A stretch of DNA of 64,000 bases, from the NCBI RefSeq assembly GCF_033170385.1, contig NZ_CP126170.1, positions 2,008,001-2,072,000 on the forward strand, written 5' to 3'. Every line of letters starts with the position of its first letter. Position 1 is the stretch's first letter. Source of the stretch: Xanthomonas rydalmerensis. Its GTDB lineage: Bacteria > Pseudomonadota > Gammaproteobacteria > Xanthomonadales > Xanthomonadaceae. The notes below the pieces were generated by a model. The model worked only from the letters and a program-made list of their open reading frames with translations, ran no database searches and was not told where the DNA came from. Positions 54,528 to 57,851 of the stretch are shown in pieces. Both the position numbers and the translations under genes were made by a program.

Positions 54528-54602
54528 GCGCGCACTCCGCGTCGGGGATGCGCGCCACGCTAGCGACGCCGTGTTGCGAGGACATGTCGGTGGACTGGTG
54601 GC

Positions 54603-54819
54603 GGGATTGGGGATTCGGGATTCGGGATTGGGGATTCGTGCAAGCAGAACCGCGCGCGCTGCGGGCCTGCTGGCGTTAGCGTGCGTGGTCGTGGTCCAGC
54701 GGCGAGCAACCGGGAGTTTTGAAACGCCACGCATCCTTGCCGACTACGCGATCCTGCCCCCGATTCCCGATTCCCGATTCCCCAATCCCCAATCCCCAAT
54801 CCCCAATCCCCAATCCCGG
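54603..54819. repeat. Two opposed heptamer runs (54603-54637 and 54761-54819)
   Basis: The first run is GGGATTGGGGATTC-type; the second is its complement (CCCGATTCCCGATTCCCCAATC), with five successive CCCCAAT units. The opposite orientations could fold into a stem of 35 bp or more with a ~125-base loop. They fill most of the 304-base gap between the amidinotransferase-fold gene and the CMD gene. Confidence 0.87.
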
Positions 54820-54831
54820 CGCGCAGCGCCT

Positions 54832-55272
54832 TTACGGCAGCGCCGGCTGCAGACCCACGCCCAGCCGGTTCCAGGCGTTGATCACCGCCACGGCCATGGT
54901 CAGGGCGCTGATCCCGGCCGGATCGAACTGCGCCACCAGCGCGTCGTAGACGGCCTGCGGCGGCGCGCCGGCGGGCAGCGTGGTCAGCGTTTCGGCCCAG
55001 TCCAGCGCGGCGCGCTCGCGTGCGTCGAAGAAGCGACTGTCGCGCCAGGCGGCGAGGGTATCGAGCTTGCGTGGCTCGGTGCCGGCCTTGCGCAGGGCGG
55101 TGGCATGCATGTCGATGCAGTAGGCGCAGCCGTTGAGCTGGGAGACGCGCAGGAACACCAGTTCGGCGAGGGCGCTGCCAAGCACGCCATCGTGCACGTG
55201 CTGGCTGGCGGTCAGCAGGGCACGGAACGCTTCGGGTTCGTGGCGGGTGTAGTCGATGCGGTGGAAGTGCAT
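54832..55272 (-). CDS. Carboxymuconolactone decarboxylase family protein (AhpD-like)
   Basis: A 146-residue AhpD-like protein with the redox motif CAYCIDMH (C-x-x-C-x-x-x-H) near residue 49. Such proteins often act as peroxidase-linked reductants or have unknown substrates. It lies 84 bases after the ECF41 sigma gene, the classic ECF41 partner arrangement, and a TGTCACA-N16-CGTC element precedes it. Confidence 0.92.
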   Translation of the reverse strand: MHFHRIDYTRHEPEAFRALLTASQHVHDGVLGSALAELVFLRVSQLNGCAYCIDMHATALRKAGTEPRKLDTLAAWRDSRFFDARERAALDWAETLTTLPAGAPPQAVYDALVAQFDPAGISALTMAVAVINAWNRLGVGLQPALP

Positions 55273-55316
55273 GGTGGGTCGCTCATGGCGGACACCGTGG
55301 CCGCCTTCCCCTCCAG

Positions 55317-55343
55317 GACGCGGCTGCGCGCGCCGATGTGACA
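55317..55343 (-). promoter_or_regulatory. Putative ECF41 promoter of the CMD gene
   Basis: On the minus strand: TGTCACA (55343-55337), a 16-base spacer and CGTC (55320-55317). From memory this matches the reported ECF41-type promoter (TGTCACA near -35, CGTC near -10). Transcription would start near 55310, about 40 bases before the CMD ATG. Confidence 0.75.
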
Positions 55344-55356
55344 GCGCCGCCGCAGG

Positions 55357-56229
55357 TCAGTCGCGGCCGGCTGCAGGCGGCGCCGGCAGCTTGTCCGGGT
55401 TCATCAGGGTCAGCACCTCGGCGATGCGCTCGCCGTCGATGACCAGCAGCGTCGCCGAATGCAGCCGCGGCCCCAGGAAGCGCAGGATCGCCGGTTCGCC
55501 GTTGACCGTGCCGATCCGCGTCTGCAGGCCCAGGTCGCGCCGCGCCAGCGCCCAGTACAGCCGGCCGATGCGCTCGGCGCCGTGCAAAGGGCGCAGGCTG
55601 GCGGTGACCTTGCCGCCGCCGTCGGAGCGCAACTGGGCGTCGGCATGCAGCAAGGCGGCGATGGCGGCGCGGTCGCCGCGCTGCGAGGCGTGCAGGAAGC
55701 GCTCCAGCAACTGGCGGTGGCGCTCGGGGGTGACCGCGAAGCGCGCCTGGCCCTGGCCGAGCCGCTCGCGCGCCCGGTGCACCAGTTGCCGGCAGCCGGC
55801 CTCGCTGCGTTCCAGGGCGCGGCCGATCTGCGCGTAGTCGTAGTCGAACGCCTCCTTCAGCAGGAACGCCGCGCGCTCGTGCGGACCGAGCCGCTCCAAC
55901 AATGCCAGGAACGCCACCGACACCTGCTCGGCGCGGTCATGGCGCTCGGCCGGGTCGGCGTCGTCGGCGATCTCCAGCGGCTCGGGCAGCCACGGGCCGA
56001 CGTAGTGGACGCGGGCGCTGCGCGCCGCGCGCAGGCGGTCCAGGCCGAGCCGGGTGGTGGCGGTCACCAGCCAGGCTTCGGGGTCGCGGATCGCGCCACG
56101 GTCGCTGGCCTGCCAGCGCAGCCAGGCGTCCTGCACGGTGTCCTCGGCGTCGGCGCGGCTGCCGAGCAGGCGGTAGGCCAGGCCGAACAGCCTGGCGCGG
56201 TGGGATTCGAAGGTCGGATCGTGGGTCAT
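55357..56229 (-). CDS. ECF41-type sigma factor with SnoaL-like C-terminal extension
   Basis: A 290-residue sigma factor: region 2 (about 10-75, FGLAYRLLGSRADAEDTVQDAWLRW), region 4 (about 105-160) and a C-terminal NTF2/SnoaL-like domain (about 170-285) that in ECF41 proteins regulates activity in place of an anti-sigma. Two diagnostic motifs are visible: WLPEP in the linker (residues 80-84) and NPDK near the C-terminus (277-280). The CMD-family gene follows on the same strand. Confidence 0.93.
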   Translation of the reverse strand: MTHDPTFESHRARLFGLAYRLLGSRADAEDTVQDAWLRWQASDRGAIRDPEAWLVTATTRLGLDRLRAARSARVHYVGPWLPEPLEIADDADPAERHDRAEQVSVAFLALLERLGPHERAAFLLKEAFDYDYAQIGRALERSEAGCRQLVHRARERLGQGQARFAVTPERHRQLLERFLHASQRGDRAAIAALLHADAQLRSDGGGKVTASLRPLHGAERIGRLYWALARRDLGLQTRIGTVNGEPAILRFLGPRLHSATLLVIDGERIAEVLTLMNPDKLPAPPAAGRD

Positions 56230-56238
56230 GACGACCAG

Positions 56239-56265
56239 GACGGAACAGGGCGTGCCGGCGTGACA
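56239..56265 (-). promoter_or_regulatory. Putative ECF41 autoregulatory promoter, nearly leaderless
   Basis: On the minus strand: TGTCACG (56265-56259), a 16-base spacer and CGTC (56242-56239), only 9 bases before the sigma ATG (56229). With a start site 5-8 bases after the -10 element, the mRNA would begin at or within a few bases of the start codon. It has the same spacing as the CMD element with one mismatch in the -35. Confidence 0.65.
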
Positions 56266-56330: not shown

Positions 56331-57851
56331 GTGACCTCGATCAAGCAGGAAGACCTCATCCAGTCCGTCGCCGACGCGCTGCAGTACATCAGCTACTACC
56401 ACCCGGTCGACTACATCAAGAATCTCTCCGCGGCCTACGAGCGCGAGCAGTCGCCGGCGGCCAAGGACGCCATCGCGCAGATCCTGATCAACTCGCGGAT
56501 GTGCGCCGAGGGCCACCGGCCGATCTGCCAGGACACCGGCATCGTCACCGTGTTCCTCGAGATCGGCATGAACGTGCGCTGGGACGACGCCACCATGGGC
56601 GTGGAGGACATGGTCAACGAGGGCGTGCGCCGCGCCTACAACCATCCGGACAACAAGCTGCGCGCCTCGGTGCTGGCCGACCCGGCCGGCAAGCGCCAAA
56701 ACACCAAGGACAACACCCCGGCGGTGGTCAACGTGAAGGTTGTCCCCGGCGACACCGTCGACGTCATCGTCGCGGCCAAGGGCGGCGGCTCGGAGGCCAA
56801 GAGCAAGTTCGCCATGCTCAACCCGTCCGATTCCATCGTCGACTGGGTGCTCAAGACCGTGCCGACCATGGGCGCTGGCTGGTGCCCGCCGGGCATGCTC
56901 GGCATCGGCATCGGCGGCACCGCCGAGAAGGCGATGCTGCTGGCCAAGGAAGCGCTGATGGAGCCGATCGACATCGTCGATCTGCAGGCCCGCGGCGCGT
57001 CCAACCGTGCCGAGGAGCTGCGCCTGGAGTTGTATGAGAAGGTCAACGCGCTGGGCATCGGCGCGCAGGGCCTGGGCGGCCTGACCACGGTGCTGGACAT
57101 CAAGGTCAAGGACTACCCGACCCACGCCGCCAACCTGCCGGTGGCGCTGATCCCCAACTGCGCTGCCACCCGCCATGCGCATTTCACCCTGGACGGCAGC
57201 GGCGCGGTGATGCTGGATCCGCCGTCTCTGGAAGACTGGCCCAAGCTGACCTACAACCCGACCAACGCGCGCCGGGTGAACCTGGACACCATCACTCGCG
57301 AGGAAGTGGCCAGCTTCAAGCCGGGCGAGACGATCCTGCTCAACGGCAAGCTGCTGACCGGCCGCGACGCCGCGCACAAGCGCATGATCGACATGCTCAA
57401 CCGCGGCGAGACGCTGCCGGTGGACTTCACCAACCGCTTCATCTACTACGTCGGCCCGGTCGATCCGGTGCGCGACGAAGTGGTCGGCCCGGCCGGCCCC
57501 ACCACCGCCACGCGCATGGACAAGTTCACCCGGCAGATGCTGGAGCAGACCGGCCTGCTGGGCATGGTCGGCAAGTCCGAGCGCGGCGATGCGGCGATCG
57601 CCGCGATCCGCGACAACAAGGCGGTGTACCTGATGGCGGTCGGCGGCTCGGCCTACCTGGTGTCCAAGGCGATCAAGGCCAGCAAGGTGCTGGCCTTCGA
57701 AGACCTGGGCATGGAGGCGATCTACGAGTTCGAGGTCAAGGACATGCCGGTGACCGTGGCGGTCGACTCGAGCGGCGAGTCGGTGCACAAGACCGGCCCG
57801 CGCGAGTGGCAGGCGCGTATCGGCAAGATCCCGGTGGTGGTCGAGGCCTGA
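56331..57851 (+). CDS. fumA: Fumarate hydratase, class I (single chain)
   Basis: Iron-sulfur fumarase interconverting fumarate and malate in the TCA cycle. The 506-residue protein starts at a GTG. [4Fe-4S] Cys candidates are in PICQDTGIV, GAGWCPPGML and IPNCAATRHAHF, with GIGIGGTAEKAM and VGPAGPTTATRMD as substrate-binding regions typical of the FumA/FumB class. Class I fumarase is oxidant-sensitive. A class II enzyme may exist elsewhere. GST and copper genes follow. Confidence 0.95.
   Translation: MTSIKQEDLIQSVADALQYISYYHPVDYIKNLSAAYEREQSPAAKDAIAQILINSRMCAEGHRPICQDTGIVTVFLEIGMNVRWDDATMGVEDMVNEGVRRAYNHPDNKLRASVLADPAGKRQNTKDNTPAVVNVKVVPGDTVDVIVAAKGGGSEAKSKFAMLNPSDSIVDWVLKTVPTMGAGWCPPGMLGIGIGGTAEKAMLLAKEALMEPIDIVDLQARGASNRAEELRLELYEKVNALGIGAQGLGGLTTVLDIKVKDYPTHAANLPVALIPNCAATRHAHFTLDGSGAVMLDPPSLEDWPKLTYNPTNARRVNLDTITREEVASFKPGETILLNGKLLTGRDAAHKRMIDMLNRGETLPVDFTNRFIYYVGPVDPVRDEVVGPAGPTTATRMDKFTRQMLEQTGLLGMVGKSERGDAAIAAIRDNKAVYLMAVGGSAYLVSKAIKASKVLAFEDLGMEAIYEFEVKDMPVTVAVDSSGESVHKTGPREWQARIGKIPVVVEA

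Follow-up and report, generated by a model that had tools for sequence, protein, structure and literature searches.

An ECF41 sigma factor gene and the CMD gene downstream of it very probably form a unit in which the freed sigma factor fires twin promoters, one yielding a leaderless sigma mRNA and the other a CMD mRNA with a 36-nt leader that bears an inverted repeat. The unit lies in the window, the whole 64,000-nucleotide stretch analysed here, within the 5.04-Mb single-contig genome of Xanthomonas rydalmerensis. In the mechanism proposed, a SnoaL-like extension would restrain the sigma factor until a ligand or a change of state intervenes, and the freed sigma factor, together with core polymerase, would then act at its own promoter and at the CMD promoter. 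Transcription from the sigma promoter would begin on the AUG or one base before it, giving a leaderless mRNA that is translated without an SD site. The CMD mRNA would open with the inverted repeat, likely as a small hairpin, and its output could pass through a further step at the mRNA 5' end. Promoters of this type respond to ECF41 expression (PMC3426412).

On sequence evidence the locus is an ECF41 sigma-CMD unit, and the protein matches bear out the ECF41 membership proposed in the first-pass annotation. The sigma factor gene (positions 55357 to 56229, minus strand) encodes 290 amino acids comprising sigma2, sigma4 and the SnoaL-like C-terminal extension. Its sigma domains are matched by the Pfam families PF04542 (E 1.2e-13) and PF08281 (E 2.8e-12), and SnoaL_2 is found in the extension at E 5.5e-5 and 24.1 bits, below the Pfam cut-off of 27. 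The protein passes the cut-offs of NCBIfam TIGR02957 (327.7 bits; cut-off 323.25) and of the SigJ model NF007214 (305.4 bits; cut-off 271), and the SigJ structure 5xe7 aligns to residues 6-286, extension included, with E 1.8e-48. The motifs WLPEP, DGGG and NPDK stand at residues 80, 203 and 277, so that WLPEP and NPDK are both present as claimed; NPDK is presumably an ECF41 motif, as the earlier annotation stated. Among 164 compared proteins, WLPEP occurs in 136 and NPDK or NPEK in 139. WLPEP is the ECF41 linker motif between sigma2 and sigma4 (PMC3426412), and NPDK was not found in the main text of that paper. The nearest named relatives found for the sigma gene are from Xanthomonas sp. F10 (96% identity) and NCPPB 1128 (94%).

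The CMD gene (54832 to 55272, minus strand), which is the COE gene of the unit, encodes a CMD/AhpD-like protein of 146 amino acids (PF02627, E 3.7e-18) that matches the structures 2ijc (E 2.6e-36) and 2o4d, which is PA0269 (E 3.2e-36). No anti-sigma-like ORF was recognised by eye among the neighbouring ORFs of the window. A divergent gene (56331 to 57851, plus strand), named fumarate hydratase from a reading of its translation, flanks the unit and lies outside it. Two arrays of 7-base tandem repeats are found past the end of the CMD gene, CGGGATT in 5.3 copies (54602-54638) and CCCCAAT in 8.4 copies (54758-54818), the second seemingly in the opposite orientation to the first.

Both genes are preceded by an element of their own. 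The predicted ECF41 promoter of the CMD gene, TGTCACA-N16-CGTC (55343-55317, minus strand), is an exact consensus match, and the predicted autoregulatory promoter of the sigma gene, TGTCACG-N16-CGTC (56265-56239, minus strand), has G instead of A as the seventh -35 base. This G is shared by 60 of 88 orthologues, or 63 when those with another first base are included. The start codons are ATG at 56229 for the sigma gene and ATG at 55272 for the CMD gene, both on the minus strand, leaving 9 nt between CGTC and the sigma ATG. The two elements, their 16 spacer bases and the 9-base distance are exactly as the first-pass annotation described them, and the consensus that it cited is identical to the published ECF41 promoter, TGTCACA-n16-CGTC (PMC3426412).

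With the spacing left free, the window holds two matches against 0.64 expected, and at least two are reached in 13 of 100 shuffles, a weak signal when taken alone. The exact-spacing pattern has four matches in the 5.04-Mb genome, two of them at this locus, and a control pattern read backwards has five. One further match (L011) lies 19 nt before the ATG of a 91-codon frame, where long open frames cross on both strands, and the other (L012) lies inside open frames with no long frame beginning within 128 nt. From the genome rate, we estimate about 5e-5 chance matches in the approximately 100 bases preceding any one gene, so that chance does not explain an element in front of both of these adjacent genes. 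The genome-wide and orthologue counts together rule out chance as the source of the motif.

The orthologue sample was drawn from a family search of 297 genomes, in which the protein was found in 123 at E up to 1e-50, with 36 loci taken from named genomes. The 147 hits gave 124 distinct genes, of which 88 have at least 59% identity, 34 have 40-59%, and two below 40% (L046 and L047) were left out of the counts. Not counted were L009 and L010, which represent the locus of L001, L045, which lacks its 5' end, and genes duplicated over the first 300 nt. Also left out were G235, whose scores equal those of G223, and two fragments, G104 and G176, all three at 60% identity or more, as well as many family places below 50% identity. 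The sigma start was taken as an ATG 5-60 nt past CGTC, the one at 8 or 9 nt being used if present; a later ATG is possible as the start in L083, L096 and L109, and L125 and L137 of the deeper clade, which have GTG at 8 nt, were counted by their ATG at 32. A thinned set holds 41 genes with less than 85% nucleotide identity. Outside the family, 398 genomes of the phylum were sampled, of which 45 have the protein (E up to 1e-40), and 40 of 43 places were loaded.

Within the 105 nt scanned upstream of the sigma gene, NGTCAC-N17-CGTC is present in all 88 orthologues, with T as its first base in 85. The exact motif is absent from the reverse strand (0/88) and from within the gene (0/88), and mononucleotide shuffles of the upstream stretches yield 0.005 motifs per 88. 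In the 41 genes, conservation of the TGTCAC and CGTC columns is 0.98-1.0, compared with 0.32-0.76 in the 30 columns preceding them. Every one of the 88 genes has ATG as its assigned start, which lies 9 nt from CGTC in 56 genes, 8 nt away in another 26 and 27-33 nt away in six, with nothing intermediate; in the thinned set the 8/9-nt gap accounts for 37 of 41 genes and the long gap for four. The 8/9-nt arrangement, seen in 82 of 88, is the rule in these orthologues. On the tree, the only exceptions to this type among the 88 are L064 and a single group of five, some branch supports being low, and parsimony places about eight switches between 8 and 9 nt and two to the long form. L109, which belongs to the same group as long-leader members, has in-frame ATGs 8, 32 and 44 nt past CGTC, and its start is a possible intermediate toward the long leader.

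The 82 short-gap genes have 44 distinct spacer sequences between CGTC and ATG, and a pyrimidine stands directly before the ATG in 80 of them. The spacer sequence is only partly free to vary, since some of its columns are conserved, those directly after CGTC being C (0.95) and T (0.85). It nevertheless varies more freely than the spacer length, which suggests that the position of the transcription start relative to the AUG is constrained. A second, upstream promoter may provide basal sigma expression; the 60 nt upstream contain no highly conserved block, and the top column (0.82) lies beside the -35.

The CMD gene follows the sigma gene on the same strand and has its own element in 82 of the 88 clade loci. 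For the others, CMD is on the opposite strand with the element present in L100, L106 and L109, its start falls outside the loaded stretch in L098, its element has TGTC in place of an exact CGTC in L122, and no CMD was detected at the L079 locus. The distance from CGTC to the CMD start is 42-51 nt in 88 of 92 cases, 57 nt in two and 67 nt in one, with one giving no value. The ninth base after CGTC is G in 83 of 92 CMD promoters, mostly followed by A-A, and both mapped ECF41 targets start with G (PMC3426412). Similarly, the ECF41 target promoter of S. meliloti is printed with a G as its last base, the ninth after CGTC (PMC6180224, Table 1). The text form of that table does not preserve the bold type used there to mark starts, and the last base is taken as the start because one lower-case, doubly confirmed start stands last (PMC6180224, Table 1). 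The predicted start of the CMD mRNA in the window is accordingly placed at the ninth base, the G at 55308 (minus strand), with a leader of 36 nt.

This leader carries an inverted repeat that the first-pass annotation did not contain, GGCGGCC-N5-GGCCGCC or a variant, situated between the CMD promoter and the ATG. Its core starts 10-15 nt after CGTC in 90 of 92 cases, which corresponds to roughly +3 to +8 in the predicted CMD mRNA. In the window the possible hairpin GGCGGCC-ACGGT-GTCCGCC (55287 to 55305, minus strand) begins at +4 and includes one C.U mismatch. Judging from how its arms change among orthologues, the repeat seems somewhat likelier to be an RNA hairpin than a DNA operator bound by a repressor, a reading that we hold to be realistic though less probable. 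Across 87 distinct leaders, 90.3% of cells are paired, against 57.8% and 64.2% when the 3' side is slid by +3 and -3 columns (the two best slides), and there are 27 double-change cells against 8.0 in shuffles, none of 500 shuffles reaching 27. These figures argue against an operator, and yet the +3 slide itself retains 23 double-change cells, and the RNAalifold covariation term is small (-0.21), both of which suit that reading.

Because kinship inflates shuffle tests, change events were counted on the sigma-protein tree. In the inner five pairs, 11 single changes yield G.U or U.G, A.C and C.A never arise in this way, and five double changes keep pairing; this again weighs against an operator, while 12 single changes that break an inner pair weigh in its favour. 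For the two outer pairs, changes from G-C to A.C and to G.U are equally frequent (five events each), which is also what an operator could show, and C-to-T mutation bias could be a partial source of the wobble-type pattern. Operators are commonly placed right after +1, and the repeat lies directly past the predicted +1. Furthermore, when the 73-nt piece of the window is folded, the minimum-energy structure lacks the hairpin and is no better than shuffles (z 0.34, with 122 of 200 shuffles as good), a further point for a DNA site. If the RNA hairpin that we favour does form, it may serve as a stabiliser of the mRNA 5' end, one known possibility.

A role of the hairpin as terminator of the sigma gene was considered and rejected; in L100, L106 and L109, whose CMD gene is on the strand opposite to the sigma gene, the CMD leader still carries the repeat, and no T run comes after it in the window. 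Rfam gave no match for the repeat. A model of the repeat, R1, built with the window's sequence among others, ranks the CMD leader best in the genome (E 1.4e-4), the next hit having E 0.009, with 48 hits at E up to 10 from the 150 of 10769 first-look candidates that were scored. The next seven hits were inspected, with ORFs listed for three, and the further hits were taken as chance and not as copies of the repeat; L200, L201 and L204 fall in a common coding sequence, which we take to be chemoreceptor-like, and L199 lies in a long frame.

The same ninth-base position, applied to the sigma gene, would give a leader of 0 or 1 nt. In the 8-nt genes the ninth base coincides with the A of the ATG (26/26), and in the 9-nt genes it precedes the ATG and is C in 53 of 56, followed by A. 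The predicted start of the sigma mRNA in the window is thus the A of the ATG or the preceding base (56229 to 56230, minus strand). The starts proposed in the first-pass annotation, 55310 and 56230, are within 2 nt of those predicted here. SD-pairing energy before the sigma starts averages -1.83 against -1.72 in shuffles (n=87) and reaches -5 kcal/mol or lower in 4 of 87, and the mean before the CMD genes is -5.04 (n=91). The six genes with the long gap of 27-33 nt are also without SD (mean -1.78), so absence of SD alone is no proof of leaderlessness. The rule that a leadered gene has an SD fails in the clade, where none of the six is at -5 kcal/mol or lower; in the deeper clade 6 of 14 are.

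It is unlikely that the sigma-gene element is real and gives a short leader instead, with the start a few bases upstream or the start codon further downstream. A 1-nt leader is possible in the gap-9 genes, where the ninth base, mostly C, precedes the ATG, and further in-frame ATGs occur in the 8-nt members L083 (at 14), L096 (at 74) and L109 (at 32 and 44); in the other 79 of the 82 genes, however, the scanned stretch has none, and the clade proteins align with the query from residue 1-7. The usual +1 base is a purine, which points to the A of the ATG, and SD pairing before the ATG is no stronger than in shuffles.

It is highly improbable that the sigma element is unused, with sigma constitutive, CMD the sole target and the motif conserved because of something else, for instance the divergent fumarase promoter: the sole detectable targets in two organisms were COE genes or a COE-sigma transcript and the commonest sigma-COE gene order has a sigma gene without the motif (PMC3426412), but for R. 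sphaeroides sigma and CMD were proposed as one operon, unlike here (PMC3426412), and the sigma motif in the present clade is near-invariant, correctly spaced and oriented, and kept without fumarase. The divergent fumarase adjoins the sigma gene in 72 of 88 orthologous loci and was not found in 16. One of these (L036) has only 123 nt upstream and is uninformative, and the other 15, with approximately 980 nt or more upstream, all keep the motif, which rules out the fumarase promoter as the cause of its conservation. The conserved elements, their spacing and the position of the start site support a positive loop with a leaderless sigma mRNA; the loop and the predicted leaderlessness are well supported by these comparisons. 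Comparative sequence tests thus support both main proposals of the first-pass annotation, that each gene has its own promoter and that the sigma transcript is leaderless.

Beyond this clade the arrangement becomes scarcer. In the deeper family clades (40-59% identity), the sigma-gene element is found in 19 of 34 genes, and the 8/9-nt gap in five. Five loci (L130, L134, L135, L136 and L146) have nearly the same -35, a spacer of 16 nt and an ATG 8-10 nt further on, with CGAC in place of CGTC, and perhaps reflect a shifted sigma specificity. In L138 and L139 (approximately 50% identity) the 9-nt geometry is present and the sole listed start codon is GTG; since non-AUG starts are reported to be inefficient on leaderless mRNAs in E. 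coli (PMC3616915), these two count against leaderlessness. The sigma leader of L124 has an inverted repeat, GGCTTGAT...ATCAAGCC, between promoter and ATG, and that of L133 has a similar, imperfect one. Outside the family, the element occurs within 250 nt before the sigma gene in 7 of 40 loci, and the 8/9-nt geometry in L158, L159 and L163, all from one other family of the class. Among the remaining 33 loci, CMD was detected in 21, always upstream of the sigma gene, and was not detected in 12. Table 4 of PMC3426412 gives a sigma-gene promoter for 14 of 53 sigma-first ECF41 loci; set against 88 of 88 here, this places the present clade far from the group average. The description of the loop as uncommon, made in the first-pass annotation, therefore holds for ECF41 at large (14/53, PMC3426412) and not for this clade, where 82 of 88 have the 8/9-nt gap.

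These observations matter in several ways for a sigma factor group that is widely distributed (PMC3426412). The promoter-AUG distance of 8 or 9 nt in 82 of 88 genes allows the start site to be predicted to one nucleotide, and the clade appears to offer a natural case of selection for leaderlessness in a regulatory gene, with L064 and the group of L098, L100, L106, L112 and L115 as natural departures for comparison. Moreover, the CMD 5' hairpin, if it truly forms as RNA, would extend the promoter- and protein-level pathway described in PMC3426412 by a post-transcriptional step. A more tentative idea, which we consider doubtful, is that the twin promoters have been selected for opposite 5' ends, a leaderless sigma mRNA independent of SD initiation and a hairpin-first CMD mRNA. 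If so, the loop would stay on when normal initiation is impaired, and the hairpin would give CMD output a control point of its own, acting through mRNA decay, translation or a binding factor.

Autoregulation is established for many ECFs. It is predicted for approximately 55% of them (PMC8103513) and is already known for ECF41, and the conserved leaderlessness is the aspect that would be new, as no description of it was found. The literature search returned nothing on leaderless ECF41 mRNA or on a CMD leader hairpin, a weak negative given that most subscription papers lay outside the search, and a search by title returned no Xanthomonas transcription start-site study. The main text of PMC3426412 does not mention a hairpin, stem-loop or inverted repeat.

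Among known systems, the closest are Ecf41Bli of B. licheniformis and Ecf41Rsp of R. sphaeroides, which according to PMC3426412 share the architecture, the WLPEP motif, the COE (CMD) neighbour and the promoter, and likewise have no obvious adjoining anti-sigma gene. Their mapped targets have leaders of 22 and 23 nt with a ribosome-binding site (PMC3426412), whereas the sigma mRNA here is predicted to be leaderless; Table 5 of the same paper lists 5'UTRs of 31 and 32 nt for the genes whose mapped leaders are given as 22 and 23 nt in its text. RpoE9-SMb20029, an ECF41 factor of S. meliloti, has a single CMD target with the same promoter and a start at the ninth base after CGTC (PMC6180224). It differs in that CMD precedes the sigma gene, the two being likely co-transcribed, and in that the portion of the PMC6180224 table covered here gives no separate promoter for the sigma gene. 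SigJ of M. tuberculosis (5xe7) is homologous over residues 6-286, including the extension, and is actinobacterial. Leaderless mRNA for an ECF sigma factor is likewise described for M. tuberculosis sigEp1, but there the leaderless promoter has a WhiB7-binding motif and the SigE/SigH-like promoter is a separate one upstream (PMC4921905). Lastly, the stabilising 5'-terminal stem-loops of the ompA class place a hairpin at or near the mRNA 5' end, as is predicted here for CMD (PMC7509114).
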